Source: Atrina japonica
Taxonomy: Eukaryota > Mollusca > Bivalvia > Pterioida > Pinnidae
DNA: 64,000 nucleotides
Direction of reading: 5' to 3'
Assembly (NCBI GenBank): GCA_030159075.1
Contig: BROG01000472.1
Coordinates: 434,001 to 498,000 of the forward strand
Below are positions 26,039-62,606 of this stretch, in pieces; the stretch's first letter is position 1; every line of letters begins with the position of its first letter. The translations under genes and the position numbers were made by a program. The notes under the pieces were generated by a model. The model was not told the origin of the DNA and ran no database searches. It saw only the letters and a program-made list of their open reading frames with translations.

Positions 26039-28615
26039 TTAACTTTGTTTTCTCAGCTGTTTCTTGTTTCGTTTTCTTTGTTGTTTACCCTTTCTATTCT
26101 TACGACGTCTCCTATTCTTTTTCTTGTCTTTCTTATTCTTACTCTTCCTTTTAATTTTTCTACACTTCTTACTATCAACTAGTCTACCTTTTTGCAACTT
26201 CTTTTGGATACATGTATCCCAGTACGTTACGATTTCATCAACTATAGTTGCAATGTGATCCAGTACCTCAAATTGCAAATTTATTCCTTCAGAAGTGTTC
26301 AATTTGTTTAGATCACACTGTATTCGACGTCTTGACTTACAGGCTGTTAGTATTTTGTTTGCTTTTTTCGACATTTTATTCGAGTTTTTGCAATGCAATT
26401 TTTGGTTGAGTTTATACATATCACACATCGCACTCATTAGTTTCGTCTTCACCTGTTGGCTGTGAGTATGTAGATCTGATGAGATGCTGCTTATTTCTTC
26501 CAATAAATCATGCGCAAAACTCAAATTAGCATACGTTTCGTGCACGAATCTTGTCTGAAAAGAAAACAGATATGGTTTGTGATATGAATATGATCTAGGT
26601 GATTATTATTTATTTTGATTTATTTTATAATAATAATAATAATAATAAAAGTTTTTCCGTTTAAAGACTTGTAATTACTTTTGACAATAATATCAATTAC
26701 GTAATCGTCATTCACTTTCATACTTTTTACTGAAGGTAACAAATTTAAACTCGATATCTGAACACTCAGAGTAAATGTTAGTAGGGTGTATAGACTCACT
26801 TTGTGACGTCTAGGTAGCTTTCTTTTCAGTTCATCTAGTGGTAATCTTATATCACAGGTTTCAATTTTCACACCGCTGACAGGGTTGGCCACATTCTTCT
26901 TTCCAACAAAATAATAATAACAAAAAGTTTATCTTCTTCATCATCATTGGACGGTATTCATCGAAAATATGAAAATAACTGAATAGTTTATATAAATCTT
27001 AGGAATCTTAATTTATGGTCTATATAAATGACCATATGCTTGAAAGTGAATAAAATGTTTTTATAAGTTAATTCGTATCAGCCTGTAGATAAAGTTAGGA
27101 AAAGTTAAGGGACTTTTTATACGTGTATAGAGGTGCGTGCGTTTATATAACCTCAAATTATTTTTTTATAGCTAATTGTATATATAGAAAAGTTAATAAT
27201 TTTACTCACCCGCTGATCTGTCAATGTCTTTATATCATTCACAATGTCTTTGAAATGCGATATCATCAATTCCTTGGATTTGATTCTATGGTTACAAGTG
27301 GGTTCTGATTCTTTTATAGTGTATGGTCTGGATCCGTCACATGGTCGGCATGTGTTACTGGTTACTGAAGTAATCGAAATAAGCAGGAAAAGACATTTCA
27401 CCACAAAATCTGTAAGATAATTTGATAAGCAAATGATTGATACATCAATAATTCCTATTTCGAATGCATTGAAAAATTAAGGATTATCATTTTGAAATAT
27501 ACGGAATATATATATATATATTTCAAAATAACAAACCAGAAAAAGTAATGTTCCACACAGTAACCATACTGAATTTGTGCACATTAATACGGGTGATCAT
27601 TTTTCTGTTCTGGTCACTGTGAACATTCTCAAAATACCCAAAGACCATTCTATATTTATTCGAAAATTATCAGTACCCTAAAAGTGGATGTAATATTGCC
27701 ACATTAGAATGGAATTAACGGATCTTGAAATGAAACGAAAGCAGGTCAACTATTAATGGATTACATGGATCCTATAACGATAAAACAAGAATAACTGAAT
27801 AAGTTCCGAAACCATTGAAATCAAAATCCCCTCAGTACGTAGTTTAAAATAGATTTGACAATGCGGAACTTCGTTAGTTTCGTTTTAGTTTTGTATGTAT
27901 GAACAAAAGTAAATGCTAAATGTACAACCAAAATAGAACTGAATTTCCGAAATTAAATTTAGAAAATCGATAATTATTTTAAGATCACCAAGTTACCTTA
28001 CAACTTATATATTGTAGTCTAATCTGGCATTTAAATAAAGTAGGTTTATTTATTGTATAGTTTATTCATAGTAGGGGTATAGTTTCGTTTGTTTTAAATT
28101 TGTATAGTTGGAATCTATCCTCATGTATGGACAGGACGTTTTTAACAATAACAATTAACATACGATTTCAAATTAAATTCATGCCATAAGAGTAAGGCGG
28201 TACAGAATTTCATTGTCTTTTAGTTTTCGTTCTTATAATATGTACATTGCTTCAAACATTCAACCCGAAATAAGACGAATTGGTTAAATAAGAAATATAT
28301 GAAACTCCTGATTGAAATATGTAATGAGAGCCTTCCTGGTTATAAGCTGTTAGTCGTGTTCAATTCACCAAGCTATTCACTAAAACACAGATTTATGCCA
28401 AAATAAATATTTAACTCTATACAATCTGTGTAAGAGTGTCTGTAGAAGAGGATAGTTTTTAATCTGACAATAACAGAATAAAATCTAGAATCAAATAAGG
28501 TTGTATTATCATTGACTTTGTTGTACGGCAAAGTGAGAGATTTATGGGACAAGTGTTAAGTATATAGTACTTTTGTGTAATCTAAGGTCCTACTGAACAA
28601 ACCTGTTGCTTGCAT
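26039..28615 (-). CDS. Secreted helical protein gene 1 (cytokine-like candidate), multi-exon
   Basis: Minus-strand exons: 27409-27210, 26898-26800 and 26554-26039, each with AG acceptor and GTGAG donor where applicable. The first of these lacks an ATG but starts in a phase satisfied by a 13-nt candidate exon at 28615-28603 (ATGCAAGCAACAG, weak GTTTG donor), giving 275 aa. A signal peptide (VVKCLFLLISITSVTS) precedes a Cys-rich start (NTCRPCDG) and a helix (ELMISHFKDIVNDIKTL). The 33-codon exon has VKIETC and LPLDEL. The last exon begins TRFVHETYANLSFAHDLLEE, followed by two more predicted helices. It ends in about 50 very Lys/Arg-rich residues. The main introns are phase 0. It is related to the genes at 49728 and 62280. 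No known family was recognised with certainty; class I helical cytokine is the working idea. Confidence 0.68.
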
Positions 28616-30590
28616 TTCTGTCCCTGAAGCAATAGCATCCACAATAAAAAATAAAAATGTTTGTTTTGCCTTTTTAATTATGAGTTGTGGAAATTCCATT
28701 GACAATGGATTGATGGATTTATATTTGAAACCGAGTGGGTTGAAAAATTCTTCGAGTCCAAATTAATAACGCATTTACAATAAGTGCTTAGAAACTATAT
28801 GACTATATTTCAGCTATTTATATACGAGGAAACGACGGCATCGCTCATAAACACTTCATTTTAATAAGTAATTAATAATGCAATCTAGCTTTTCTACTTG
28901 ACTTTTGAACTTTACCTTTCAGCATTGATTAATTTTGAAAAATAGTGGCTCTATTAAGAGGTATAAATGTATTAATGTGTTGATAACAGCCACTATGACT
29001 GTACGTACATAAGGCGTAAATCGTAAAGATGAACTTCAGGGGCTAAATATCCTATCTTAATTTCTATACAACTTGAACTCAACTGAAAAACGTCAATGTT
29101 ATAAATATATCAATGACAGACGGGTAGACACAACCCTTACACGTTTATCCTAGAATGGTGAGACATGGACTATCAAATGTGTAAACATTTATATGCGAGT
29201 CGTGAAAACCATAGTACACGTCTTTGTAGAAAAGAAGCCACCTACTTGAGGTTGGTTCCTTTTGCATGGACTTAAAAAATGAAATATCATCGATAATGAG
29301 GAGTAAAATGATATAACTTAAAAACTGCCAGTTTCATAATAGCTATTAGGACGTAAAGAAATGAATTTTCTTGCAACTGGTTTTCAAAGGAACTAATTAT
29401 CTTGAATGAAAATACACATGAAAGCAGACGACATGTTGAAACACATCAGCTTCCTATAAACATATGTAATCATAATGTAGGCCACCATCCTAGAATAGCA
29501 TCAGTTATATCAAAAGAAATATTAGGACAGACACGATATGATTAAATAGAAATAAATCAATGAAGTTACTATCTTCAAATTGAAAAAAGACAAATTTTAA
29601 AAGCAGACATGAAAAGGACTTGTATGTATGAATATCATATAATTACAATACTAACCTGTACAACACATTTTTAAAAGTGTAAAATTTCTTCTTTTGAAAA
29701 TCAGTTATTCTTTCAGTAATTTATCAGTATGCAAAAAAAGATGTTTTTTTTTGGCTGCAATAGTGAACACTATAGTAACTTGCATGGGTCCTGAATATAT
29801 GGGTTCAGGTAAAAGAATTTTCAAAGTCCCTAAGTGGTACAAACTAGTATTTGCATGATGTTTAATCATGTCGGTGTTAGTAAGTCATTACGAGTACGGT
29901 AGAATGGTAATTTGAACTTTAAGTATTTTCTATTGGTGTTGCAATACTATATTTTCAATTATTATTTCAATTCCGCCTGGTACTTTTTATTTCCGACTGT
30001 CACCAGGAAGTTTTATCTATATCATTATTGTATCGCTAACAATGTTTACATTTGAAACATGACGGGAAACTGTTTTACTAATATCCCCACGTACTTGACA
30101 TCGTCATGATTCTCTGGTCTAGTATTTGATCGTCGTAATACGATCTATCAGTTTCAGTTATTTTACGTGTAGCATAGTTTGCATCTTGTCACCATTTGTC
30201 ATACTTTAAATGTCACAGTATCAAATGTTATGTTTTAGGGGCTTATTTATTTATATTTTTTTAGTTTTGATTGTTAATTTTTAACGTAATTAAAACGAAA
30301 ACAATATATATGTTTGCTAATCTCCTAATATGGAAAAATGAACACATGTATAAATTGGACAAATTAATATGTGAAATTTATTAGTTTACCGACAATTTAC
30401 ATACCCACAGGTTTAAATTCCGAACTCTAAAAAATAAATAAAATAAAATTCTCACAAAAATAATTTTCTGCTATATTGAATTTTTGATTACAAATGTATT
30501 TCTTAAATAGGCTATATCAGCATTTTAATTTTTGATTGTTTAATTCCTGCTAAGAGCTTTCAGTGATACAAAGACTGTACAAGGGCAATG
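28616..30590. other. No gene seen
   Basis: About 2 kb of AT-rich DNA without recognisable coding, RNA or transposon sequence. If the 13-nt exon at 28615 is real, the promoter of gene 1 lies here. Confidence 0.4.
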
Positions 30591-30599
30591 AATGGCAAT

Positions 30600-30725
30600 G
30601 TCTGACCCATAATTTATTATGCCAATGTATTGAGGGTTATTTAACGTGCCACGACTTAAATGTCATACGGACCTCTGTCCTATTTTCAACCGAAACAGGC
30701 GTGATCACACACCAGCACTCAATGA
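30600..30725 (-). repeat. Degenerate SINE core (minus strand)
   Basis: The sequence TTATTTAACGTGCCACGACTTAAATG followed by ACGGACCTCTGT matches, in reverse orientation and with many changes, the body of the SINEs at 37498 and 59095 (CCCGTGTCAC...GGCACGTTAA). The tRNA head is not recognisable. Confidence 0.4.
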
Positions 30726-31377
30726 AATCAGATTACTGTATAACCAAGGTAAATTTGTGGTAGTAAAAGAAGTTGATGAAGATTTCGTAAATGGCAAAGA
30801 TGATTTTAATTTTGAATTGATGGTGGGCGGAGTCAGGAAATTCCTAAATCACACCCCTGTTTCCATACAAAGGCCTAAATCCTCACTGGGTAAAATACCA
30901 ATGTACAAAATGTATATAGCACTATGTAATGATCGCATGTAATTGTTCTTTAATTTCTAGAGAAGTATTCTCGGCTGTCCACACAGGAAGTATTATCATG
31001 TGTTGACAGGTGATACTCATGGTCGCTCTCTATTGAAGATATTAAACGTGTTGTTTTATATATTACAGTCACAATAGATGTGAATGGAATTGCTTGCTCA
31101 GAAATGCATCAATGGAAAGATAAGATTATGTACGTTTGTAATTATACACTTAAATTTCTTTTAGATAAAATGTCCAAATATCACAAAATATAATTTTCAG
31201 TCTAAAATGTAAATTTAGCACGGTGATAACCGTATGACAGTAATAATCTAGAGCAGAAATTACAACCCAATGGTATACCTGTATTGAAAGCAATTCTCTG
31301 AAGGGACGGGATAAGCATTGTCATTGATATTTTGTTTATAGTTTCGGATTGTCAGTCTAATGTCTAATTGTCGTATG

Positions 31378-31380
<3 letters not shown>

Positions 31381-31462
<82 letters not shown>
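31381..31462. repeat. (TC)n microsatellite
   Basis: 82 bases of pure TC. The open frame that runs through it (Leu-Ser repeats) is an artefact. Confidence 0.97.
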
Positions 31463-31465
<3 letters not shown>

Positions 31466-32019
31466 AGAATTCATATAAACACTTCACATTTGCGGATTCA
31501 AGTGGGCTGCGGGGTTGCAAACCCCCTTTGATGAATTCAATATTATCATCACGTCTGGAATCCAGAAAAAGGCTTCCCAAAGCTGCCGAAATTTTCGCGC
31601 CTCGCTAAGCTCAACAAAATCAATTATAAATTATACTCTTCTCTCATACTCAAAATCCTGGAACCACCCTGTTTTTTTCTGTATATTTTAGATTTTATGG
31701 ATTTGGACTACCGGCTTTGCATTATGGGTTGTGTTTACCCTAGGTTTTCGCTTTTATTTCAGCATGGTTACTCGGGCTTTCCAAACAGTGGAAAACCCTA
31801 TTGTTATTGTCGTGTTTATAATAATTTTTTTTTTTTTTTTTTTTCTCTCTTATCTACAAAATTTATAGAAATTGGTTCATTCAATTCAAAATCTCTTATG
31901 TCTTCTGAGGACGAGCTGGCAATTTTTGGGTCTACCATCTTAGCCCCTCCTTGGACCAGGACTATTTTTGTACCTTTTCAAAATGACTCAACATTGCAGA
32001 AACTATTCATGCGACTTGA

Positions 32020-33620
32020 GTAGTACTATGCAGCTCCATAGCACGTCTTTTGAAATTAATCGTCACTGATGACGTCATCAGAATCTTCTGATTGGGCAAT
32101 TCAAAAAACGTGCTATAGAGCTGTGACGTCATAACCGGAAGTAGGTCATACCACAAATGAGGTCATACCGGAAATACGTCATACCGGAAGTGTCATGTTG
32201 CCATGGCGACAAGGAGAAAGAACCAATCTTAAAGTTTTGGGGTGTGTCTATGACCGGAAGCGAAAGTCTGAGAGCGAATCTATTTTTAGAATCGAAACTT
32301 TGGATTTTTCCAGGTTTTGGTTTGGAATGACAACAGCAGTAGGTGTCGCCAGAGTCGGCGAGAGATGACGAGAGTTGTTCAGAGTTGCCGATCCCTTATC
32401 AAGTACGCAAGCGCGAGAAGCGGTAGGTCGAACTCGTAATTGCGAGTCAAGCTTGAACATGTCATCATTGTACTTAGACTTTGTTTGTACAAAGGGAGAT
32501 CACTCTGTATAAACCCTAGGCATGGAACAAAGGGAGATCACTCTGTGTAGACTCTATAGGTGGAACAAAGTGGATATCACTCTGTATAGACTCTAGGATT
32601 GGAACAAAGGAGATATCACTCTGTATAGACTCTAGGTTGGAACAAAAAGAGATCACTCTGTATAGACTCTAGGATTGGAACAAAGGGAGATCACTCTGTA
32701 TAGACTCTAGGCTTGGAACAAAAAGAGATCACTCTGTATAGACTCTATAGGTGGAACAAAGGGAAGAACACTCTGTATAAACTCTAGGGCTGGAACTAAG
32801 GGAGATTACTCTATATGGACTGTATACACTAAAACAGAAAGGGAAGGGTGGGAAGTGAAACCGGAAGTGAAGGAAGGGTAGCCATCTTGGATATGGAATC
32901 ATGGGATATCTAGTTTCATGGATAGGCAGGGAATCCTGGCTAATGAGGGATTATTCATTTTACCGGAAACGAGGGACGGACTAATCTCACGGCAGGAGAG
33001 ATGCATAGAACATGAAGTGTGTAACGTACTAATCAAGCGTGTAACGTTATCATTTTTCAAAGTTTGCAAAGTGATCAAGTGTGTAACTTTCTCGTGTTTC
33101 AAAGTTTGCAAAGTGATCAAGTGTGTAACGTTCTCATGTTGAAAAGTTTGCAAAGTAATCAAGTGTGTAACGTTCTCATGTTGCAAAGTTATAAAGTGAT
33201 CAAGTGTGTACCGTTCTCATGTTTAAATTTTGCAAAGTGATCAATGTGTAACGTTCTTATGTTTCAAAGTTGCAAAGTGTGCAACGTTCTAAGTTATGAA
33301 GTCTCAAAAGGACAAAGTACAAAAGTTACAAAGTTGTGCAGTATGAGGTTGTTCACTGTTCTCTCATTTCAACAAGTTTCAAAGTTCATACAGTTAAAAA
33401 AGTATCTATAGTATTTTATCGTTTTGTACTTCTGTATATAAAATAAAAATTTAAACACTCACCCAAAGGATTTTTCTGACGATGTTGCTTCGGATGCCAA
33501 ATGAGCCCTCAGAGGTCTAACTGAACTTTTTCTCTAGTCTTTAAAGTTACTATTTTTAGAATTTGCAAACCAGTTTGGATTTCTGTCCAATAAAATCTAT
33601 CGATCAAGTAAAATACTAGT
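32020..33620. repeat. Complex repeat unit, copy 1
   Basis: First of two directly repeated blocks (the second is 33885-35160). Order: a hairpin-forming palindrome (32029-32120) next to TGACGTCA sites, ACCGGAAGT-rich sequence, a CAAGCGCGAGAAGCG segment, about nine copies of a 38-39-bp minisatellite (GGAACAAAGGGAGATCACTC type, 32480-32830), an AGCCATCTTGG segment, several copies of a ~42-bp minisatellite (AACGTTCTCATGTTTCAAAG type, 33010-33300), then a shared tail ending in CACTCACCCA and GACGATGTTG. No ORF of interest. It may belong to the ends of the adjacent viral element or be an independent repeat. Confidence 0.6.
32040..32215. promoter_or_regulatory. Cluster of CRE-like and ETS-like sites
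   Basis: Within 180 bases there are two GTGACGTCAT/TGACGTCA motifs (CREB/ATF type) and repeated GGTCATACCGGAAGT-like motifs (ETS type). Short direct repeats of GTCATAcc suggest local amplification. Such density resembles a promoter or enhancer, but no start site can be assigned. Confidence 0.4.
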
Positions 33621-35568: not shown

Positions 35569-35796
35569 GATGATGAACTGATACCGAGTAAAACCAGTTG
35601 TGTTGCATATATAGAGACTTCGAACGCGCACGCAATCAATGACGTCAGAGGTCTATTCGGAGTATGAGTTGTTTCATGACTCCTACTACTACTATTCGGA
35701 ACGTTTTTGTCTTATACCTTAGATGATTTATACATACATTACTCAAGTGACCATGAATATAATACTACATCTCTCAGTTTCTTTACTAGTATTAAA
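35569..35796. promoter_or_regulatory. Divergent promoter region between viral genes (copy A)
   Basis: The intergenic gap separates two head-to-head genes. It contains TATATA on the minus strand (about 35605) some 40 bases before the minus-strand ATG, a CGCGCACGC run, ATGACGTCAGAGG and a TCCTACTACTACTA run. Copy B (45790-45960) keeps the same layout, including TCTATATAAACC and CTGACGTCA. Conservation between copies supports a bidirectional promoter. Confidence 0.5.
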
Positions 35797-36446
35797 ATGG
35801 CTTACTATCGGTCCATATTCCCCGATACGATACAATTAAAGCATGAATTTACCATGGTTGTGACGGGACCTGCCAAATCAGGGAAAACTGAATTTGTAAC
35901 ACAGTTGATAGAATGGAAGGATCAATGGATTCATTATCCTCGCGACAAAATTGTTTGGTGTTATCGTGAATGGCAACCTTATGAAATTTTACAACGGGAA
36001 CATCATTTTCACTTCCTTCAAAATATACCTGAGGATGACGAAGTCTTAGTTTCTGATCCAACTCGTCGTCACCTACTTGTCTTTGATGATATGATGGGTA
36101 GTAAAGCTCTCTCTGGTTTACACGTAAAGCACATCATCGGAACACAAGTTTGATCTACATCACTCACAACTTGTTTGGTCGTGCTAAACAATATCGTACC
36201 ATAAGTCTGAATGCTCATTATATCGTCCTGTTGAAGAATCCTAGAGATAAATCTCAAGTGACCAGCTTATCACGTCAATTAGAGCTACCAGGGTTAAACC
36301 ATGCTTATCACGATGCTAAAAATCGTCCTCATGGTTATCTCTTGATTGATCTCACATCGTTTACCCCTGATAATCTAAGATTAAGATCAGATATGTTTCA
36401 TCCTTGGTATACGGGAGGAATAGTGTTCTATACACCTTATAAGTAG
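35797..36446 (+). pseudogene. Virion packaging ATPase (FtsK/HerA-A32 type), copy A, frameshifted
   Basis: Expected role: pumping viral DNA into capsids. It starts at ATG 35797 (MAYYRSIF). Walker A is VTGPAKSGKT near residues 23-32 and Walker B is HLLVFDDMM near residue 95. The second half (36150-36446) is in another frame and contains IYITHNLFG, YIVLLKNPRDKSQ and GYLLIDLTSFTPDNLRLR. Compared with copy B, roughly 13 bases are missing near 36115, which causes the frame change. The total length of about 215 codons is normal for this family. It is followed after 50 bases by the basic-protein gene. Confidence 0.78.
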
Positions 36447-36498
36447 ACAGTAACTTTCTCTAGGCCGTCATTTCTCGTACTCCTGTTAACGTAGAATC

Positions 36499-37285
36499 AT
36501 GAATCCTTTACATTTACAGTAAACTGGTAACTACTTTAAGAAAATTGCTATTGGAGAATGATCCCGTCAGACGTCAAAAACTGTTAGAATTAGGTAGAGA
36601 CGCTTTATTGAAATGGTTTGGTATTGGGGCTAAAAATCTTCTGTCTGGTACTATTCCAGTGACCAAACCTAGAGCAACGTTAATACAGAGAAATGCTGAT
36701 CATTTAAAAATCATTGCTGACCCAAAAGCTGAAGAGGAAGCTAAGAAGTCTGCTATCTTAAAACGGGGAGGAGCAGGGTTATTAGGTGGGGTAATCATTC
36801 GATCCCTATTACAGTGGGCTGGTCGTCTCAAGAAAAACACTGCACCTAAAAAGAAAAAAACACCCCCTCCTCCTAAGCAGAAAAATAAGAACCCTAAGAA
36901 GAAGAAGAGCCCTAAGAATAAGAAGAGTGATAAGAAGAAGAACCCACAATTGGTTCTAAAACTGAATCTGAAACAGATTCGTGAAGCAGACACACTGGAT
37001 CAGGCTTCTCCTACACGAATACCGTCTCCACCTGTAACCAACAGTCCTGTAGCAGGGACTTCTGCTACTGCAACATCTATCTTTGGACAACCTATACGTC
37101 TTCCTGGTAGACCTAATATCAAAATTACACAAAGGAAACAACCCCCTTTTACTAATACTAAAGCAGTCCTACGGACGCTGAATGTACCTAAGAAGTCTAC
37201 TCCTACTGCTACTCCCAAGCAGTCCTTGTTATTTCCCTTATTACAAAAACTTTTAACTGCAAAAGATGTATCATCTCTGCTATAA
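36499..37285 (+). pseudogene. Basic Lys-rich viral protein, copy A
   Basis: The ATG at 36499 matches that of copy B, but copy A meets an early TAA through a small deletion; the frame is then open from 36545 to 37285 (about 246 codons). Features: an N-terminal helix (DPVRRQKLLELGRDALLKW), a glycine/hydrophobic segment (GGAGLLGGVIIRSLLQW), a long KKKK/PPPP-rich run, a Ser/Thr/Pro region, and IFGQPIRLPGRPN. A hydrophobic helix followed by a highly basic part suggests a minor virion or DNA-condensing core protein, but that is inference. No named family recognised. Confidence 0.6.
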
Positions 37286-38518: not shown

Positions 38519-41500
38519 AATGTACACGAGCTATCTATTTTTCATCTTAATATTCGTAGTATTAGGAATAAATTAGACTTTATTGAGGATATTGCAAGTG
38601 ACTACAACATAATATCTCTAACTGAAACTCACCTTGACGAAACTGTATCTTCCAATGATTTAGTATTACAAGGTTTTAATGAGCCCTTCAGAGTAAAAAT
38701 TTTGCAGGGGGTGGAGTTCTAGTCTTTGTATCAGACCAAATAAAAGCCACTAGAAGAGCCGACTTAGAATTTGTAAACAGTGAACTAATATGGCTTCAAC
38801 TTGATTTTCCCTCCCGTTGTGTTTTACTAGGTACAATTTATAGACCACCCAACTCTTTCTGGGATCAATTCCATAATTCTGTAGAACGAGCATTTGATAT
38901 TTCATCAAATATTATAATTGTCGGTGATATCAACGTTGATTTAATTACAGTATCACAATATCATAGATTTTCAGATATTCTTAGTAACTTTAGTTTGAGG
39001 AATGTAATTACAGAACCTACAAGAATAGGACCGACACGTGTCAGTCTTCTAGATCCCGTTTTAATTTCACAATCTATTAAATGTATAGAACAATTAGTAT
39101 TCTCTATAAGTAGGGATATTAGTGATCACGAAGCATGATTAGCATATATTGAAGTAGATAGTAAAATAATTAAGTCCTATAAGCGGGAGGTTTGGTGTTA
39201 TAAACATGCTGATTTTATCAAGTTTAATACTCTAATTGAAAATTTTTCTTGGGAAAATATGTTCTTAGAATCTGAAAATATCGATGAAGCCTGTTTAAAT
39301 TTTACAAATAAATTTTTATCATTTGCAAAGCAGAGTATCCCATTTAAACAAGTCACTACAAGACCTAACGATAAACCGTGGATGACATCAGAACTGCGTA
39401 AAAGTATTAGAATTAGAAATAGATTGCACAAAAAATCCAGACTAAGTAAAAATGATGTTGATATATCAAATTTTAAGTCAGCTAGAAATCGAGTAAATAA
39501 TATGAAAAAACACGCACGCGAATATTTTTATCAAAATCTAGATGAGGTCATTGACAACTATAGTTCATCAGATCCTAAAGCATACTGGAAATTACTTAGG
39601 AGTTTAATTAAATCCAAAAATAAGTCAAATGAAATTCCATCTCTCATTGATCCACTGAGTGGCAATATTAAATACCACGATATAGAAAAGGCTGAACTAT
39701 CAAATAATTATTTTATCTCTATTACTGAATTAGAAGATACAAATGTTCGTGTTCCGTCTCTAGATCTAAAAACAAATTCAACGTTTAGTCATATAGACAT
39801 TAATTGACATTCTTAAAATACTAAAACTAGGAAAAGCTTCTGGTATAGATGGTATAAGTCACCATATGTTACGCAACACAGCAAATACCGTTTGCAAACC
39901 TTTAAAAACTTTATTCAACATGTCATTAACTAACTGTGTTTTTCCAGATTTGTGGAAACAAGCCATTATTATGCCATTGTTTCTAAAAGATAATAAATAC
40001 TTACCATCAAATTATAGACCTATAGCATTACTATCTGCAGTAGGGAAAGTTCTTGTACGGGTAATTTTTAAACATATGCACAACTATTTCTTGGCAAATT
40101 CTTTATTTTATTCAAGGCATTCTGGTTTCATGCCAACTCACTCTTACAGTTCATCAACTCATAGAAATATATCATAATATTTGTCTAAATTTAGAAGAAA
40201 AGAAACACACTAGTATTGTTTTTTGTGATATTTCTAAAGCATTTGACAGGGTTTGGCACAAAGGGATTATAGAGAAGCTCAAAGCTTATGGTATAACAGG
40301 AAATCTTTTAAACTGGTTAATTCATTACTTGAAATTCAGAAAACAAAAAGTGTTTGTAGGTGATTCTTATTCTCATTTTCAAAACATAAAATCTGGAGTT
40401 CCTCAAGGTTCTATATTAGGACCTCTTTTGTTTTTGATTTATATTAATGATATTACTGATGATTTAACAAGTACATCTCGTCTTTTTGCAGACGACACAT
40501 CATTGATTTATAGTTCATCCTCTAAATTAGAAATAGAACATGTTTTGAATTCCGACTTACAAATTATAAGTGACTGGTCCAAAAAATGGTTAATTACGTT
40601 CAATCCCAATAAAACGAATGTTATTTTTATTTCTAATACTGAACGTGATAATAATGTTAATTTAATTTTCGGTGAAACTAATTTGGATATGTCGGAAAGT
40701 CACAGACATCTAGGAGTTATTTTAAGTGCTAATACCAAATAGGGAAACCATATTGATTCTATCTATCTGTCTGTATTGCAAAAGATTAATGCTTTAAGGC
40801 AGCTAAAAGTTTTAGTTAATATAAATATTCTCTCAAAAATATATATATCATTCATTCTCCCTGTCCTTGAATATGCATGCGAGGTTTGGAGTGGTTGTCC
40901 AATTACTCGAAAAATTGCAGCTTGAAGCCGCTAGAATTGTGACAGGTTTACCCAGTTATGTTAATAGACAAGCCCTATATTTCGAAACTGGTTGGGAAAC
41001 TTTAGAGAGTAGAAGAGATAGGAGAAGAATAACTTTATTTTATAAAATTCATAATAATCTTACTTCATCTTACCTACACGAACTATTACCTCCACAAACT
41101 AGAGATATAAATAGATAATAATGATTATGTAATACCTAACTATAGACTCACCAGTACTAGACTATCTTTTATACCTTATACTACTAGACTTTGGAACAAT
41201 CTTCCTGAAATGACCCGAAACCAAACTTCTGTATCTAGATTTCGAAGTGCTATATCACATCATCAAAATAAACCTCCTGACTTCTTCAGTTACGGACTGC
41301 GTCGCATCAATATAATTCACACAAAACTTAGATATAACTGTAGCTCTCTAAATAATGATCTCTACCGTGTAAATTTAACAGATTCTCCTGCATGCCAATG
41401 TGGCCATAGTTGTGAAAATGCTTTCCACTACCTGCTGGAATGTCCAATATACTATATCTTGAGAAATATAATGTTCACTAAACTCCAGCCATATTACCCA

Positions 41501-41608
41501 ATAAGTTTAGATATTTTGTTGTCTGGTAACCCAGAGCTCCCAAATACTGAAAATGAAGAAATCTTTAAAATTGTACAAACCTTCATACGTGCTAGCAATC
41601 GATTTTAA
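38492..41608 (+). pseudogene. LINE-B ORF2: endonuclease-reverse transcriptase (broken)
   Basis: 38492-39170 is the endonuclease: FHLNIRSIRNKLDFI, LTETHLDE, GGGVLVFVS, GTIYRPPNS, IVGDINVD, LLDPVLIS and SDHEA, with a frame break near 38700 and a stop at 39136. 39259-39807 is the linker (RPNDKPWMTSELRKSIRIRN, KHAREYFYQNLD). 39810-40742 is the RT: GKASGIDGIS, PLFLKDNKYLPSNYRPIALL, then FCDISKAFDRVWHKG, GVPQGSILGPLLFLIYIND and LFADDTSLIY, whose ADD is catalytic. There is a frame change near 40155 and a stop at 40740. 41210-41608 has the terminal knuckle CQCGHSCENAFHYLLECP. Several frameshifts and stops; inactive. Confidence 0.82.
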
Positions 41609-49727: not shown

Positions 49728-51765
49728 TTAGACATTTGAACACCTAACAACATTTTGTTCGTGTATCTGCAAATTGTTTAAGATAAACAGAAGCTGATAT
49801 GGAACACAGTATTCGGTAATCACAGTCTGTTCGGCTCTTTCGAGTGCACTATTTTCTCCAACGCCGTGATTATCAGCAATAATTCTAGTATATGCCAAAG
49901 TCACAGTGTAATACGGCAATATATTTCTCCGGATGTATCTGCTGAACGATCTTGATGTTACTCCTGTTCTTTCCCACAGCCTTTCCTGTGCTGATATGGA
50001 CCTCATGAATGCATAATAGGTCGAAATATTATCATATATTTCTTGGAATGATATCTATAAAAAGATAAAAACATACTTTTTATCCATTATAACTTTGGTA
50101 CACAAATTTCCAATCAAAGAAAACAAATTGGTCAATATTCATTAAAATGTTTTATAACTTTTTCTGCACTCAACTTTGTTTGGATTTAATTATGATGATT
50201 AAGCTCATATACTATTAAAATGATATAACTTTAAAAGGGAAAAGGATGTGAAACTGTAACAATCTGTTCTAAGTTTTTGTTACAAAATATGGAAGGTTCA
50301 ATTGAAAGTTGGACAGTAAAGGACTAAACTCAAATTCTGGCTATTAGTCAGTTCAACATACAGAATAACCGTACTAGATTATGTCACCTTTTGATAAAAA
50401 ATAGCAAAGCAAAGGTGCGTTTGTGTATATATAGGACAGAGAAAAATCGAATTTGTGCGGAAAATAAAAACCATGTGTACTAGTACATCAAAGTATTTCT
50501 AAATATAATTCATAACACATACGCAAATTTCAAAATTTTGATCCAGAGATGTGAAAGTTGTCTATAAAACCTAATGTAAAATACGTGTCGAAATTTACCT
50601 CAAATCCGACGTGTTTATTTACTAAATTGAACAGCGGTAATGAATTGTAAACCGTATAGGGGCCGTCTCAGAAAGCCAAAATTATAAAATTATTTAGATA
50701 ATTCGAACCTCAGTCTTTCGTGAAATATTAGTAAATGTACAAAACCAATGATACTCAGCCTCGTCGCGCCTTTCGTGACATTTATGATATTTAGGCGAAA
50801 CTCATGTAAAAGACATACTTATAATTTGTTTAGGTACCGACTATTTTCGTAGACGCTGTTTCTAAGTAAGCCGATAATGTGACTACTTCGCAACACTGTC
50901 TATGAACATAAATAAATAAATGAATAAAATTGAGTAACATATCCATTGTAACATTGATTTTTATGTTTTCCCGGCTGCCATAGGCATACCGAAGATGTTG
51001 CAGCGTGAATAATCTGCAAATAAAACCGAAATTGTGAGGTCACCAATCATTCAAGCAAGTTTGGTGCCCAGCGGAATTGTCCTACACAAGTCCTCATTTT
51101 ACAACCGATTATATGGTTTGATTTTAAACATTTAAAAAATATATAAACACCATTTATATGGAACATGAAGTGGCCACCTAGATCTATTTCGCTAATTTTT
51201 TGTTGTGGAATAAACACAAATGATTGATCAAAATATCAAAAATGGCACTTTCAACACCACAAATCTCCGAAACTAGACTTTTCTCAGATATAAAGCATAT
51301 ATTCTAAATCGCATCGACGTGTAAAACTCAAATTCTGTCCAACTGTTTCCTTCTTCCCAAGATGCTACAATGCGCTATTAAAACGGCTGTCAGCTCTGTT
51401 AGCATTTCTCTCCGAAAGAATGAAATATTTCTGCTCAATTCAATATTAATCTTTGACACAACCCCTTCAAATTTTATTTTATGTAGGTAATACAACATAT
51501 CTTCTGTTGATTGCTTTAAACCATTGTCATGAAATGACAGAAATTTTTAGGAATTTCTAAGAGTACAGGGCTCAATCTTGTGGATGGATTTATGTAGTAA
51601 ATTCTGTGTAGATACGTATTGTACAGGCGAATTCATTAACGTAAGATAATGGATCAAGATATAGATGCCTTTGAGAAAATCGCGAAAATATTGTCCTATA
51701 TGTACCCTAACACACTATACATTATATATCACAATATTTGTTTTAGTCGATTTATTACAACAATT

Positions 51766-51848: not shown

Positions 51849-53124
51849 GAGTATGTGTTACTGGTATTGTCGCAGCTGTTCTAATTCTAAACCCATCTAT
51901 GTCTATAAGAAGTGAATTTTCCAAGCAGGAAGAATGTGAGCTTAATTCTGTAGTTCAAGTTCGTTGGGATATATTGTATTCATATCTCCTATGTAAATTA
52001 GATATATCTCTAATTTATATTCCGTCACATTTTATCTATGGTACTTTTGATTAATTTCAGGTATTTCCGCCTGACCACGTAAATTACCTACTTGAATACA
52101 TGACTCACGGACAAACTGGGGTAGATCTGTGACACATTCAGCATGAATCCTAGTCACGTTCGGAATTTGATTTCTTTTTGTCTGCAAAAAAAAAAAAACA
52201 CTTTAAGAATATCAATAATATGGATTTGAAAGTGTTATTGGTTAGAAGGCCATTAAAACAATGTATAATTTAACACATTGTTAATTGTCAAACACGGATA
52301 TGTGTGCCATCACTCAATATGAGATAACAGTTTGTAACAATATATAAATTGACGGAAAATATCTAAATATATGAATTTAATTTTTTAAAAAAAATACGAG
52401 ATCAAATGTCAATATAGGTCATAACAAATATAAAATTTTGCGTGGATGTGTATCGACGGCATTTGTAAAAACACAACTTGTAATAACATCACCATTTTCA
52501 AAATCATGTTTTACTGCAGTTCGACTAGCTGAATGAAGTTTAGTTTCGTTAACGATTATTTCATTCAGTTAATTAAAATTTACAACTATACGTGGTGCCT
52601 CCGCATCGATGGTTAAGTGCATGGCTATTTAAACCATGAAGTCTCTCTATTGTCAACTGAGGTTTGAGTCCCGCTGAAACCTAAGCTGATTTCATGAGAA
52701 AGTTTAGTTTACTTCCAGAAGGCCGGTGGTTACTGAAAAATTCTTAGGTGTGTTGTAAAACACTATTTCAGTTAAGGCATTGGATCCTCAAGTACGATTC
52801 GGACTGCTGTTTCCTTCCTCGCCAAGAACAGAAAAAATTAAAATCCGACTGTTGATGAACAAATATCTCTTATCAGATTAGTAGAGCTTGGATGTTTAAC
52901 ATTTTATGTACAAAAACGTATTTGCATTATATTGACCATTAATTTCAAAATATAAAAATGCTTACTATTTTATTTCTAAGCACCCTAGTACTGTGTATCA
53001 GACTATGTATACTGTTGTGGAGAACATCCAGGTTTTGCTGTTGCTCATTGTCACTGATGAAGACATGTGAGGATACGATACTTAGAGAAAATAACAATAC
53101 ATTTAGTCGGAGGAAATGCAACAT
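49728..53124 (-). CDS. Secreted helical protein gene 2 (cytokine-like candidate), three exons
   Basis: Minus-strand exons 53124-52966 (53 codons), 52181-52092 (30 codons) and 50054-49728 (108 codons plus stop) join in phase 0 with GTAAG and GTAGG donors and AG acceptors to give 191 aa with no stop. A signal peptide (MLHFLRLNVLLFSLSIVSS) precedes a helix (LDVLHNSIHSLIHSTRVLRN). The short exon has VTRIHAEC and DLPQFV, aligning with VKIETC...LPLDEL of gene 1. The last exon starts ISFQEIYDNISTYY and has two further helical stretches (SFSRYIRRNILPYYTVTLA, TVITEYCVPYQLLFILNNLQ). No transmembrane segment besides the signal. The large introns contain microsatellite DNA. No known domain recognised by sequence alone. 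Confidence 0.7.
51769..51847. repeat. (AT)n microsatellite in intron 2 of gene 2
   Basis: Pure AT dinucleotide run. Open frames of alternating Tyr-Ile through it are artefacts. Confidence 0.95.
52595..52690 (+). repeat. tRNA-like SINE head
   Basis: A-box-like GATGGTTAAGTGCATGG followed by a B-box-like GGTTTGAGTCCCGC (52661-52674), with a leucine-tRNA-like long spacing. Acceptor pairing is poor; read as a SINE promoter or a decayed tRNA copy. It lies in intron 1 of gene 2, antisense to it. Confidence 0.45.
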
Positions 53125-54858: not shown

Positions 54859-54936
54859 GGTAGTAGTGATGGAATTAGTGTATGTTGAGTAAGCTTTTAC
54901 ATATAGGATCATCTAGAAATATGAACAGCACATGCG

Positions 54937-55350
54937 AGCCAATAAGAGGTAACACTTTCAACTCTAAGTATCCAGATAGTATCATTTTTTCTATTGTTTA
55001 GATCTGTCTAGGCCAATAAGAGGTAACACGTTCAACTCTAAGTATCAAGATAGTATCTTTTTTCTATTGTTTAGATCTGTCTAGGCCAATAAGAGGTAAC
55101 ACTTTCAACTCTAAGTATCCAGATAGTATCATTTTTTTCTATTGTTTAGATCTGTCTAGGCCAATAAGAGGTAACACGTTCAACTCTAAGTATCAGATAG
55201 TATCATTTTTTTCTATTGTTTAGATCTGTCTAGGCCAATAAGAGGTAACACGTTCAACTCTAAGTATCAAGATAGTATCTTTTTTCTATTGTTTAGATCT
55301 GTCTAGGCAAATAAGAGGTAACACTTTCATCTCTAAGTATCTAGATAGTA
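54937..55350. repeat. ~74-bp tandem repeat, five and a half units
   Basis: Unit starts AGGCCAATAAGAGGTAACAC and ends TGTTTAGATCTGTCT. Units differ by a few bases (CTTTCAACTC or CGTTCAACTC; TATCCAGA or TATCAAGA). The last unit is interrupted by a PLE tail at about 55350. Confidence 0.9.
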
Positions 55351-55625
55351 GACAGTCAAGTCCAATGAAACACGTGAGGAGTGAATCTTCGTCACAACTG
55401 GTACAGACGTCTCAACAACCGCCAACGAAAAGGCAACTCAACATTTCACTTTGTGAAACAGAGTAGTCGCAAACAAGACTATTATACCGACCGTAAAATT
55501 TGCGGAACGTTGACATTAAACGCGGGTGACTGAGGGATATTACTACTTAAATGTGGAAAATTTACGATGGGAAAGCCGAAATCGTCGCGTTTGTCATATA
55601 GCTTAGTTGCTAATTTTCCGTCCGA
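55345..55625 (-). mobile_element. PLE family 1 3' fragment with internal deletion
   Basis: Minus-strand fragment starting within the tail (CAGTCAAGTCCAATGAAACA). It matches copy A but lacks about 130 bases after GACATTAAACGCGG, and joins a PLE family 2 piece at about 55622. Confidence 0.75.
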
Positions 55626-56910
55626 TGATGTTCAAAAAATGAAAAACAATCCTTAAATAGTCTCAACATGAAGAACAATCCCAAACGGGATAAAACCGGG
55701 TGTCCGGAAGGAGTCTGTGAACTCTGTTGGCATGCCACATCCGTCCCAAACGTTCCATGAAAACCTTTCTAGTTCGATGAATGGGTCAAATTCGGTGAAA
55801 AGACATAGTTCTTTGAAAAGCATGACTGGCGAAAGGGAGTCCTTATCTGTGGTCGTACTCCAGAATACTCACTTATATTCCTGAATGGGGACTTCATAAT
55901 GTTTAACAAGATCCTAATATTGACCATAAAACATTTTAAACGACGATTTCAAGCATTCAACCTCGTGTAAGTTGTTTATTGGCGAGTCTTTTCGCTCTCA
56001 GAATAAAACATTCATAAGAAGATCATGCCCTGGCATAAGGTATAAGTTGTAAAATGAAAACGCCATAGGCAGGGGAAGATGGAATATTACTAATAAGATA
56101 CGGGAAGTTCGCGATATGAAAATTGAATTCGTCGCGTTTGTCATAAAGGAGTTGCGAAGTTGATCATCCTTTCCAATCGACAGGAGAAAATCTAGTTAAG
56201 AAGCAGATCTGGCCGAGGTAATTCTGAAATTCTGAATCATTTATGGACATAACGTCGTCGATATTCCTGTTAGTAAAATTGAATCGAGATTATGTTTGTG
56301 TCCTTTCGAGAGCAGAGACTTATATATTCCGTTTCATATGAATACAAAAAAGATGTCGGTCAAGAGTTGTGCACAATTGATACTCATTTGAATGCCGCCA
56401 ATTTGTTGGAAAACTTTTCCTCCAAAACCCACGTAGATGTTGTCCCAACATCATGATAATATCGTCTTCAGTGTACTTGTTATTGGAATCAGAGTGTTCC
56501 TTAACAAAATAAGGTTCTTCATGACCTAACACTAGATAATTTTCATTCATATATGCGATTTCCATTTTTGTATATAAAGAAGTTTTGTATAATAAATGTT
56601 AATCTGTTCTTGGCGAGTAATTGTTGTGTAAAGGGTCGAAAAATCGAAAGACTTGATGCTTGTCATATGTTTGAAATTTGGAGACTTTAAATGCTCCAAC
56701 AATTCTTTTGAATTCTTTAGTATCCACATCTAATTGACTTATTGAGTAGGCCGTTTTACAGTACTTCCGAAGACCTTGTTTAATATATGTAAGAAGTTTG
56801 GCGATAAAGATAAAGGCTTGATGGAGCACTTAGATGACCCCGGAATGAATCAGTGTTTATAGGGATTGTTGTGCATCTTTGGTACACGGATGGTTTTTTT
56901 TTCACTTTTG
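55622..56910 (-). pseudogene. PLE family 2 reverse transcriptase, broken copy
   Basis: Minus-strand fragments: 56547-56829 with MWILKNSKELLEHLKSPNFK, MTSIKSFDFSTLYTTI and KPLSLFIAKLLTYI-type sequence; 56320-56565 with NYLVLGHEEPYFVKEHSDSN and KYTEDDIIMMLG. The later part is recognisable only in pieces down to the 3' tail with CCGGTTTTATCCCGTTTGGG. Same gene order as family 1 but clearly diverged. Inactive. Confidence 0.65.
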
Positions 56911-57194
56911 ATACATACGTTCCTGAATGAAGCTTTAAATGTATAAAGGGGAAATTGGCTACAAAATGGCCACAATGGTTCAATAAGCGAATGAATTTTA
57001 AATAACTGAAAACAATTTGCAATTAAGATAAATGACTTATAATTTACAGAATAATAATAATAACAATGTCGATGTCTTCTAGTGATATATAGATTTGCAG
57101 GAAATTACTTAGTTAAGATTACAAGCAATTTGCATTGCCATTGTTTTATTTTAAATCAGAGTTGTCGAAAGTAATTTCCCACATGTTCAGAAAT

Positions 57195-58836
57195 TAGACA
57201 ATATAAAAATTTCAGATACCAAAGTATAAATCAATAGAATGTCCAGAACACAGATACAAATCCGGTAAAAATGGACAAACACGGACCTCTGGAAACCAAA
57301 AGGGGGATCAGGTGCCATGGAGGAGTAAGCATCCCCTGTCGACCGGTCACACCCGCCGTGAGTCCACAGTCAAGTCCAACGAAACAAGTGAGGAGTGCAT
57401 CCTCGTCACATTTGGTTCAGACGTCTCAACAACCCCCAACGAAAAGGCAACTCAACATTTCACTTAGTGAAACAGAGTACTCGCAAACAAGACTATTCTA
57501 CCGACCGTAAAATTTGCGGAACGTCGACATCAAACGCGGTTTTCGATATCCCTGTGTCAATAATTTGTCAGTGAGTAGTTTACCTCTGTATATGAAATTT
57601 TCATATGTTGTGCACGCCCTGGCATATCGGATCATTTGTGAAATATAAACTCCATATGCGGGTGACTGAAGGATATTACTACTTAAATGTGGAAAATTTA
57701 CGATGGGAAAGCCGAAATCGTCGCGTTTATCGTATAGCTTAGTTGCTAATTTCCCGTATGAAGCGTGTGTGCTTGATTCTGTTGTATCTTTAATTTCTAG
57801 TTCACTGGGATATATCGCATTGACATATGTATGAAAATTGTCATTATTAATTGACAAAACGTCATCGATATATCTAAATGTATGTCAAATTAAAGGACAC
57901 CGCTACCTTTTTCTTATTTTGATTCAGCAGTTTCTGAATGCAGTCTGCTTCGTATGAATAAAGGAACAGGTCGGCCAATAAAGGAGCACAATTGGTTCCC
58001 ATAGGAATGCTGATAGTTTGTTGAAAGACCACGTCTCCGAACATAACAAATATATTGTGTATTAGAAATTCCAGCATGTTTTTTTATATCAACTTCAGTA
58101 TATTTATGTGTAGAATCAGAGTGGTGTTTAACGAAATAAGTATCCTGATAGCCAATCACTAGATATTTAAATTTTGGGTACCACCTTTAGTGAATAAACA
58201 GTTGTCTATGATGCTGAAAAGTCTTTCTTTTAATTTTTTATGTGGAATAGTAGTGTAAAGAGTAGAGAAGTCATAAGTTTTGATACTGTGAATTCGAGAA
58301 AAATTGTGTGCCTTGAAATTTTCTAAAAGCTGTTTAGAATTTTTAAGTATCCACATCTGATTTACACCGCTTCTGGAATAAGCAACTGTACAGTATTGCT
58401 GAAGTTTCTCCTTAATGACTGTCAATATCTTGGTAAGGAGTAAAGATAAAGGTTTGATAGAACATTTGCTGGATCCTGCTATGTATCTTTGTTTATATGG
58501 GGTTTTATGAAGTTTAGGTATCCAGTGTAAATGTGGTAGCTCGAAATCAGTATCCGTTGTAGGTATATCAAATGAGCGTAATACGGACACGTGATTTTGA
58601 AGGATCTCGTCCTTTGAAAGTGAGCTACGTGTGTATGTAGGATTTCCAGAATTCGTATTAAACCCAAGTTCTTCTAATAAACAATTATAGTAATGTGCCT
58701 TACAAATAAAAACTATATTATTTGAGGCTTTGTCTGCTGGTACCAGTACATATTGGTCATGTAACCTATCCAGTTCAGTTACTACTTCTGGATCATTAAA
58801 TACAGAGGGATAACGTGTTTTCATAGAATCTTTCAC
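57195..58836 (-). mobile_element. PLE family 1, best preserved copy in the window
   Basis: Minus strand, with 3' tail (57200-57500), RT C-terminus, palm and N-terminal region. It ends at 58836, where a SINE tail begins. The region 56910-57195 upstream of its tail is unassigned. Confidence 0.8.
57498..58836 (-). pseudogene. PLE family 1 reverse transcriptase, best copy (two or more breaks)
   Basis: 58836-58159 is open for 225 codons: RYPSVFNDPEVVTELDRL, YVLVPADKASNNIVFICK, HLHWIPKLHKTPYKQRYIAG, MWILKNSKQLLENFKAHN, TYDFSTLYTTIPHKKLKERL. A frame change follows; 58077-57874 has NIFVMFGDVVFQQ and IPMGTNCAPLLADLFLYSYE, and the YIDD active-site block lies at a small insertion near 57875. 57857-57498 has NAIYPSELEIKDTTESS, KLYDKRDDFGFPIVNFPHL and YGVYISQMIRYARAC. 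The expected LDILL strand is missing by deletion near 57755. Reverse transcriptase role is clear; activity is lost. Confidence 0.78.
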
Positions 58837-58945
58837 TCATATGGAGACGGCATCAAATACTGGTGAAGGGTTTCAAATTTTGGCCTATGCTCAGCACTTA
58901 CGGCCATTGAGGAGTGAGGGTTCATTAACGTGTCGACATTGATTT
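58833..58945 (-). mobile_element. SINE tail fragment (minus strand)
   Basis: Reverse complement of the SINE body/tail (TCACTCATATGGAGACGGCA, GGCCTATGCTCAGCACTTAC, GGGTTCATTAACGTG). It lacks the tRNA head. It is flanked by an 80-bp perfect inverted repeat of PLE sequence (see findings). Confidence 0.75.
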
Positions 58946-59040
58946 GGAAATCCTACATACCCTCTGTATTTAATGATCCAGAAGTAGTAACTGAACTGGA
59001 TAGGTTACATGACCAATATGTACTGGTACCAGCAGACAAT
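58946..59040 (+). mobile_element. PLE family 1 5' RT fragment, plus orientation
   Basis: Encodes YPSVFNDPEVVTELDRL and DQYVLVPAD on the plus strand. 58960-59039 is identical to the reverse complement of 58730-58809. Confidence 0.8.
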
Positions 59041-59094
59041 GAAATAGCAAAATATTAGCATAACTTTTTTTTCGGAAGATTTACGAACACTAAT

Positions 59095-59365
59095 TGAGTT
59101 GCCTTGCTCAGACGGTAGCGCATTCGACTCTTGAAAGTTCGAGTCCAGCCGGCGACAGGTCGGATTCCTCTCATTCGGATGAGACCATAAAAACTCGAGG
59201 CCCCGTGTCACAGTAAGTGTCGGCACGTTAATGAACCCTCACTCCTCAATGGCCGTAAGTGCTGAGCATAGGCCAAAATTTGAAACCCTTCACCAGCATT
59301 TGATGCCGTCTCCATATGAGTGAAAGATTCTTGAGTGGGACGTTAAACACAAATACAACCAACAA
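59095..59365 (+). mobile_element. tRNA-derived SINE, second copy
   Basis: Head TTGCCTTGCTCAGACGGTAG with a B box AAGTTCGAGTC; the middle of the head has a small deletion relative to 37498. Body GGCCCCGTGTCAC, GTCGGCACGTTAATGAACCC and tail GAGTGGGACGTTAAACAC. No long (AAAC)n remains. Confidence 0.82.
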
Positions 59366-59649
59366 CTAACATCTATTTGTAGTAATCTTAAATGTCTAAA
59401 CATGCATACAGATTTCCCCTAAACAACAGTTTTCTGAGAATTGTTTAATTATTGAAGTGGTATATTTAGTCATTTTAAAATGGTTTCAATTGGGTGTTTC
59501 TTCTTCCATGTAAGCACATTAATTCCATGATATATATATATATTCAATCCATCGTCATTAACATTAGGATTAAATACCTTTCATCTTTCTTTACGACCGA
59601 GTTCTCATATTCGGAATTCTTTGCACGGCCTTGAAACATGCTTTTTTGG

Positions 59650-59745
59650 TGAATGCGTAGATGGCGCATGGTTAGGACGTCGTGCATGGGCGCCAGGCGA
59701 TTGGTGCCGTAGGTCGAGGGTTCAAACCCCAGCCGGGGCATGGTG
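59650..59745 (+). repeat. tRNA-like SINE head, other family
   Basis: A-box-like TGGCGCATGGTTAGGACG and B box GGGTTCAAACCCC (59718-59730), with AGCCGGGGCATGG after it. Different from the 37498 family. No tail could be bounded. Confidence 0.5.
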
Positions 59746-59871
59746 AGTTTATATGTGCCTTTTTATTTCTTATTATATTGTATTTGTGCTGTTTGAATGA
59801 TTTATTTTCACAGAATAGTATCATTTCTGATCCAAGGTCCATAGTTAATGTTCAATGATGTAGTGATAGTT

Positions 59872-59874
<3 letters not shown>

Positions 59875-59931
<57 letters not shown>
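59875..59931. repeat. (AT)n microsatellite
   Basis: Pure AT run. The stretch from 59932 to 60540 that follows has no recognisable gene. Confidence 0.95.
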
Positions 59932-59932
<1 letters not shown>

Positions 59933-60544
59933 TATTTATTAATTCACAAGCAATTTCTTTATCTGAAAAGTTCAGTGTAAATACCATAAACATTTCAGTG
60001 AGTAACCCACGCAGACCGCCAGAACATCTCTCTGACAGTCATATTACATCATTACACTGCCACTGCAGTTACATTGTGATGAATACGTGGCGTATTGTAA
60101 ACAATATGCACAAAACATTTCAATATTATCATTTACATCAAACCATCACCAACTGTCCATATATTCCATTTCGTTTAATACAAATGGTCAATATTCAGTC
60201 GCTCCGACCGTAGAAATAATTTCCCATCAAGCTTTGAGGAATTTAGTTTTAATTTCACGCACAATTACCATGTAAAAGCTCGTGCTGGCTCTCATGTACG
60301 AAACTGATGTCGGACGGTAGCCTACACTCTAGTTGCATCATTGTCAAGATTTGAACCATTATTTCTTGACAATGAAAATATTGTAGTTTAATTTATTTTA
60401 TTTAATTCTTATGAATGAAATTGAGTGATAGGCAATGAACTGCATTTTATTTTCGGTGAATTTCACTGAATTTTGACTGGGACATTTTTTTGCATAACCT
60501 GCTAACAGCTACAAAAATTGAGTCAGCCATGAAAACACCTTATT

Positions 60545-61850
60545 AAGTAGTAACCGAGCTTGATAGATTACATGACCAATATGTACTGGTCCCGGCAGAC
60601 AAAGCCTCAAATAATATAATTTGCTATTTGTGTGGCACATCACTATAATTGTTTATTAGAAGAACTAGGGTTTAATACGAAATCATCTAGTAATTCTACA
60701 AACACATGTAGCTCACATCAAAAGGACGAGAAACTTCAAAATCACGTGTCCGTATTACGCTCTTTTCATATACCTACAACCGATACTGATTTTGACGTAC
60801 CATATTTATATTGGATACTTAAACTTCATAAAACCCCATATAAGCTGCAGTATACAGCAGGATCCAGCAAATGTTCTACCAAACCTTTATCTTCACTCCT
60901 TACCAAGATATTAAAAGCCGTTAAGGAGAAAGTTTAGCAATAGTACAGCTGTTTATTCCAGAAGCGATGTTAATCAGATGTGGATACTTAAAATTCTAAA
61001 CAACTTTTAGAAAATTTGAAGGCACACACTTTTGCTCAAATTCACAGTATCAAAAGTTAAGACTTCTGTACTCTTTACACAACAATTCCACACAGAAAAT
61101 AAAAGGAGAGACTTTTTAGCATCCTAGACAACTGTTTTTTTTCACTAAAGGTGATACTCGAAAATTTAAAGTTCTAGTGATTGGTTATCACTATACTTAT
61201 TTTGTTGAACACCACTCTGATTCTACACATAAATACACTTAAGTTGATATTAAAATGATGTTGGAATTTCTAATCGACAACATATTTGTAATGTTCTGAG
61301 ACGTGGTCTTTCAACAAACTGTCGGCATTCCGGAACCAGTTGTGACCCTTTATTGGCTGATCTGTTCCTTTATTCATACGAAGCAGACTGCATTCAGAAA
61401 CTGCTGAATCAAAAGAAGAAAAAGGTAGCGGGGTCCTTTAATTGGACATTTAGATATATCGACGACGTTTTGTCAATTAATAATGACAATTTTCATGCAT
61501 ATGTCAATAAGATATATCCCAGCGAAATTAAAGATACAACAGAACCAAGCACACACGCTTCGTTCTTAGACATTTTACTTACTATAGACACAGACGGGAA
61601 ATTTGCAACTAAGCTATACGACAAACGCGACGATTTCGGCTTTCCCATCGTAAATTTTCCACTTTTAAGTAGTAATATCCACAGTCATCCGCATATGGAG
61701 TTTATATTTCACGAATGATCCGATAAGCCAGGGCGTGTTCAACATATAACATTTCATATACGGATGTAAACTACTCACTGACAAATTATTGACACACGGG
61801 TATCGAAAACCGCGTTTGATGTCGGTATAATAGTCTTGTTTGCGATTAGT
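60545..61850 (+). pseudogene. PLE family 1 reverse transcriptase, plus-strand copy (broken)
   Basis: 60632-60937 has HYNCLLEELGFNTKSSSN, the PTTDTDFDVPYLYWILKLHK block and SKCSTKPLSSLLTKIL. After a stop near 60935 come MWILKIL-type pieces; 61353-61718 has LFLYSYEADCIQKLLNQKKK, FRYIDDVLSINNDN with the catalytic YIDD intact, THASFLDILLTIDTDG and LYDKRDDFGFPIVNFPLL. The GIPMG block before it is damaged. This copy keeps the strand that the 57498 copy has lost. Confidence 0.75.
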
Positions 61851-62130
61851 CTGTATAACTAAGTGAAATGTTGAGTTGCCTTTTCGTTGGCGGATGTTGA
61901 GATGTCTGTACCGATTGTGACGAGGATTCGTTCACCACGATTTGATTTGGATTTGACTGTGGACTCACGGCCGGTGTGACCGGTCGACAGGGGATGTTTA
62001 CTCCCCCCATGGCACCTGATCCCACCTCTTGTTTTCCAGAGGTCCGTGATTGTCCATTTTACCAGATTTGTATCTATATCCTGGACATCCTAAAGATTTA
62101 TACTTTGGTATCTGATATTTTCATATAGCA
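60545..62130 (+). mobile_element. PLE family 1, plus-strand copy
   Basis: Runs from the N-terminal RT region through the palm and C-terminus to the 3' tail (61850-62130, with CCTGATCCCACCTCTTG and TCCTGGACATCC). Orientation is opposite to the copies at 775 and 57195. Both ends of the RT are present but with many breaks. Confidence 0.8.
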
Positions 62131-62279
62131 TTCATATTTTTAGATACGTGTGTAATATAGTTACATGTATGATATTTACAATAAAAATCGAAACTTTTTT
62201 ATATGTATAATTATAACTTTTATGATATCTGTTTATAGTACAGAAGTTATACATTAATATGTTACTGGACTTCCTCATA

Positions 62280-62606
62280 TTAAGCTGCAATTTGCCTTTT
62301 GTACTTTTTTAGGATATTATCCACCAATGACGCAGTGTCTCTCAATAAAACGATATTCCACATGTACCTTGATGTATGACTCATGGTTCTGTACTTTTCT
62401 GGTATATATGATTCACTTACAAGGGACTGCAGCGAGGTGCCATTCCCAATTATAACATACAATTCACATAGGTAATCCAGCGCCAATTGTTCTATACTTG
62501 ACGTCATGTTTTTAAATTCATTCGTTGATTCTGTAGTTCGCATCAGCTCTAAATAGATCAAGGCTATTGATATTTTTCTATAATCTTCCACAAACATTTG
62601 ATTCAC
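62280..62606 (-). CDS. Secreted helical protein gene 3 (cytokine-like candidate), last exon only
   Basis: Minus strand: AG acceptor (TTTCACAG) directly before 62606, then 108 codons and a stop at 62280. The exon is exactly as long as the last exon of gene 2. It opens VNQMFVEDYRKISIALIYLE, sharing F.E.Y..IS with gene 2 (FQEIYDNIS) and with gene 1 (FVHETYANLS). Two further helical stretches follow (SIEQLALDYLCELYVIIG and YMWNIVLLRDTASLVDNIL). One N-glycosylation sequon (NGTS) lies between them. The upstream exons must lie beyond 62606; Gypsy-like DNA fills 62820-64000, so they are probably outside the window. Confidence 0.62.
   Translation of the reverse strand: MNQMFVEDYRKISIALIYLELMRTTESTNEFKNMTSSIEQLALDYLCELYVIIGNGTSLQSLVSESYIPEKYRTMSHTSRYMWNIVLLRDTASLVDNILKKYKRQIAA

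Follow-up and report, generated by a model that had tools for sequence, protein, structure and literature searches.

A fast-changing multigene family of small helical proteins, probably secreted, with a probable IL-6/LIF-type architecture

Excerpts of a 2026 survey credit molluscs with IL6R, JAK and STAT and name insect Upd and a crustacean IL-like lectin as the only invertebrate IL-6-like ligands (PMC13203501), and helical cytokines are described, in part of another study, as hard to detect by sequence (PMC2654155). Here we describe genes 1, 2 and 3, three minus-strand genes of a 64-kb window (the whole stretch of DNA analysed, positions 434001-498000 of the 584-kb contig C472), together with their relatives in the 832-Mb assembly in which all genome searches were made. 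It is nearly certain that these genes are part of a larger family that changes fast and encodes small helical proteins, probably secreted, and we consider it probable that this multigene family has the build of IL-6/LIF-type long-chain class I helical cytokines. Among described systems, Drosophila Unpaired (Upd1-3), an invertebrate JAK/STAT ligand, is alike in the proposed role, and by role only. The oyster protein CgIFNLP, reported as a cytokine-like mollusc protein, is likened here by its description in an excerpt (PMC8218723), as is an amphioxus GH-like type I helical cytokine, also invertebrate but from a chordate, to which the excerpted account gives 208 amino acids (aa) and low identity to the vertebrate proteins (PMC9010856). 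Interferon-lambda shares clustered genes and, in IFNL2/3, similar intron phases, but is class II and has five conserved exons according to the part of the source at hand (PMC2654155). Among the matches listed from open-licence PubMed Central (PMC) papers, none reported a mollusc family of this kind.

When the last exon of gene 3 was used as query, near-full-length, stop-free relatives were found on four other contigs, namely C315 (E value 1e-6), C23 (1.6e-4), C1059 (0.035) and C840 (1.4), and a hand-made consensus query added five copies on C92 and one each on C27 and C889 (E 1.4e-6 to 1.1). Gene 3 itself was regained in a leave-one-out test by a profile of the four paralogues with an E value of 7.5e-14, ranked among 2647 open reading frame (ORF) segments of at least 40 aa. 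Weak rows of the consensus search were retained for C27 (E 0.03), C92_714k (0.45) and C889 (1.1), and leave-one-out values of 1.5e-15, 8.6e-20 and 3.8e-8, respectively, then supported them. Outside the window, C472 carries four copies of a further gene, g4, at 338, 362, 373 and 404 kb, the one at 373 kb being split between frames, and another gene, g5, at about 424.3-425.6 kb; the C92 copy at 640 kb has a stop within its signal peptide exon. In total the family comprises 19 loci (eight on C472, five on C92 and six single), with a firm core of 12 made up of gene 3, C315, C23, C1059, C840, the five C92 copies, C27 and C889; matches on C177, C82, C1137, C168, C1418, C267 and C48 were not counted on account of weak E values or partial length. 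The tandem, rapidly diverging family proposed in a preliminary description of the window is thus real and larger than the three genes on which it was based, and the clustered paralogues looked for beyond the 64 kb were found in the g4 copies and g5.

Purifying selection acts in close copies: the ratio of nonsynonymous to synonymous substitution rates (dN/dS) of the last exon was 0.17-0.31 among four C92 copies (six pairs), 0.40-0.57 among three g4 copies (three pairs) and 0.41 between C23 and C840, while the comparison of C23 with C315 yielded no value as dS was saturated. Genes 1 and 2 were each found as a single copy. A transposon origin of the exons, which we considered, was rejected in view of the few genomic copies, the lack of a Pfam match and the purifying selection.

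A relation beyond chance holds for gene 3 and is supported for genes 1 and 2 by profile scores. The last exon of gene 1 reached 13.1 bits with the core profile, a score equalled by one of 2000 shuffles (4.9 bits for the reversed sequence), and that of gene 2 scored 11.1 bits against a profile built from three g4 copies, where none of 2000 shuffles did as well. The core profile failed to recover gene 2 (129 of 2000 shuffles scored as high) and three g4 copies (674, 1069 and 1725 of 2000), and the g4 profile failed to recover gene 1 (440 of 2000). It is conceivable that gene 3 is the only member and that genes 1 and 2 are either other, separate genes or models that arose by chance: in simple pairwise alignment the three genes do not find each other and score no better than shuffles, and unrelated-looking ORFs score as high, one of them exceeding the ORF of gene 1 with the core profile (11.9 versus 11.5 bits) and another, L026, a locus first met as a weak match to g4, exceeding gene 2 with the g4 profile (13.3 versus 11.1 bits). 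Given the shuffle results for both last exons, we regard this as highly improbable.

In GH, IL-6 and LIF genes the first intron lies in phase 1 within the signal peptide and later introns are in phase 0, and the family follows this vertebrate pattern. Phase 1 entry was read, several times by eye, in nine of ten signal peptide exons (gene 1, two g4 copies, g5, C23, C840, C92_655k, C92_640k and C92_714k), the exception being gene 2. These exons leave in phase 0. A short exon with phase 0 at both ends follows; it was read in 11 genes and carries LP or FP in nine of them. The phase counts are not fully independent, because some exons came from phase-restricted scans, which admitted only phase 1 entry for the 362-kb g4 signal exon and only phase 0 for several short exons. 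Thirteen of the 19 loci have a last exon that opens with Y..[IL]S, and all ten last exons of alignment A4 share one invariant Cys. Hydrophobic N-terminal exons, recognized by eye and by hydropathy scan in genes 1 and 2, g4, g5 and others, suggest that the proteins are secreted.

Within the window, the three gene models were reproduced at their original coordinates (Table 1), as were the equal lengths of the gene 2 and gene 3 last exons (327 nt each) and, on re-reading genes 1 and 2, the phase 0 introns separating the main exons. Two shared motifs fared less uniformly. The pattern V..I...C...LP, ascribed to the short exons of genes 1 and 2, holds exactly for gene 2 alone, the gene 1 exon having V.I..C...LP instead; the common last-exon start reads FV...Y..LS in gene 1 and F[VQ]..Y..IS in the other two. 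Gene 1 has four exons, and the three exons of gene 2 encode a product of 191 aa.

An AlphaFold model of the gene 3 last exon contains three long helices (predicted local distance difference test score, pLDDT, 69), joined by a first link of 3 residues and a second of 23 residues, the latter with two short helical turns. In a structural comparison with a list of 685 chains, of which 678 were aligned and the best 50 rows considered, the top match was IL-6 residues 80-184, a C-terminal part which we take to hold helices B-D, and named IL-6 or CLCF1 chains stood at ranks 1, 3, 5 and 9. Human IL-6 (PDB 1alu) and CLCF1 (8d7h) share 10-14% identity with the model in the structural alignment and differ in that neither is detected at the sequence level. 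We consider an IL-6-type fold of the family likely. An arrangement with the last three helices in one exon is known from LIF and OSM rather than from IL-6.

On this reading, a start exon would open the signal peptide, the next exon would complete it and encode helix A, a short exon would supply the AB loop and helices B, C and D would come from the single last exon. After cleavage, the products would adopt an up-up-down-down bundle and trigger JAK and STAT signalling through a cytokine receptor of gp130/Domeless-like or CRLF3-like kind; the receptor, the JAK, the packing of helix A and a function in immune or developmental signalling are all inferred. More tentatively, the genome could be that of an invertebrate, probably a protostome, with tandemly expanding true IL-6/LIF-like class I cytokines that have kept the vertebrate intron plan and represent the missing ligands of its gp130/Domeless-like receptors. 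The preliminary description called the genome mollusc-like; mollusc-type haemocyanin was searched for and not found, and the control of that search was silent as well. If the genome is lophotrochozoan, the family would be a candidate for the missing ligands of mollusc IL6R-type receptors. With clustered candidate ligands, what activates such receptors would become directly testable, which would bear on how old class I cytokines are; if the more tentative reading is true, IL-6-type cytokines predate vertebrates.

Several observations limit the cytokine assignment. No sequence homology to known cytokines emerged: Pfam gave no family above its cut-off for genes 1, 2 or 3, a PDB sequence search nothing significant (best E 0.08 for gene 1 and 1.3 for gene 2), and a search of 5.8 billion proteins no match at E ≤1 for gene 1 or gene 2. 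Matches to the class I receptor profile PF09240 look like repeats or low-complexity sequence, and the exon-level search for a receptor was weak. The layout alone is no proof of a cytokine, because it is generally common for introns near signal peptides to lie in phase 1, as stated in an excerpt (PMC1626468). The class I assignment of the preliminary description has the three-helix fold topped by IL-6 and the intron layout in its favour. It is unproven: confidence in the gene 3 model is middling and helix A is missing from it, ferritin-like bundles match as well as IL-6 in the structural list, and neither a matching sequence nor a receptor or transcript turned up.

The ferritin-like tie, the long basic tail of gene 1, the strong divergence of the paralogues and the missing receptor in the exon-level genome search would also suit a lineage-specific secreted helical-bundle family of another kind, such as gamete-recognition proteins (abalone lysin is an example), antimicrobial or reproductive-tract proteins, in which fast evolution and clustering would occur and the helical bundle would be alike only by convergence. 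We consider this unlikely, since the IL-6 and CLCF1 chains are aligned over the cytokine C-terminal part and the exon split and 1-0-0 phases match those of cytokine genes, including IFNL2/3, whose tiny first exon ends in phase 1 and is followed by phase 0 introns in the excerpt (PMC2654155). The IFNL2/3 layout would also fit a helical cytokine branch other than class I, such as class II (interferon/IL-10-like), but IL-6-family chains match best in structure and the last three helices of gene 3 lie in one exon, as opposed to the five-exon IL-10-type genes of the same excerpt (PMC2654155), and this alternative appears quite improbable. No interferon or IL-10 chain stood among the best 50 structural matches listed, which does not exclude them.

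As to the downstream pathway, the genome search returned STAT_bind exons at C551 (two exons) and C149; the JAK domain FERM_F1 was not found, and its control was also silent. The receptor-profile matches (IL6Ra-bind), on C198, C106 and C15, were rejected as they lie in repeats, low-complexity sequence or unrelated frames.

Table 1. Exons of the three minus-strand genes in the window
Feature	Position	Strand	Remarks
Gene 1, exon 1	28603..28615	-	13 nt with ATG, phase 1 out; provisional, weak donor GTTTGT
Gene 1, signal peptide and putative helix A exon	27210..27409	-	phase 1 in, 0 out; AG acceptor, GTGAGT donor
Gene 1, short putative AB-loop exon	26800..26898	-	33 codons, phase 0/0; holds C...LP
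Gene 1, last exon	26039..26554	-	putative helices B-D and long basic C-terminal tail
Gene 2, signal peptide and putative helix A exon	52966..53124	-	53 codons; ATG inside exon
Gene 2, short putative AB-loop exon	52092..52181	-	30 codons, phase 0/0; V..I...C...LP present
Gene 2, last exon	49728..50054	-	109 codons including stop
Gene 3, last exon	62280..62606	-	109 codons including stop

The Lys/Arg-rich tail at the C-terminus of gene 1 (window 26039-26170, minus strand) spans about 43 residues and is absent from the other last exons read. Earlier exons of gene 3 were not found in the window, where the sequence upstream is retroelement-like by eye, and matches resembling the short second exon at window 4401-4336 and 57415-57380, both in sequence repeated on the contig, were judged to be due to chance. 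The window also contains a DDE transposase ORF (10552-11199, plus strand; DDE_Tnp_4, E 7.2e-21) and a reverse transcriptase (40065-40742, plus strand; RVT_1, E 5.1e-25) inside a run of ORFs like those of long interspersed nuclear elements at about 38683-41608. By eye, ORFs at 35680-37285 (plus strand) resemble a Polinton/adintovirus-like ATPase (P-loop GPAKSGKT) and a partner, and pieces at 58159-58836 (minus strand) and 61254-61718 (plus strand) are reverse-transcriptase-like (YIDDVLSINN), with no Pfam match in either case; an ORF similar to the latter pieces also occurs elsewhere on C472. Outside the window, at about 390.7-398.2 kb, C472 carries some 7.5 kb of C-rich simple sequence that is open in several frames.
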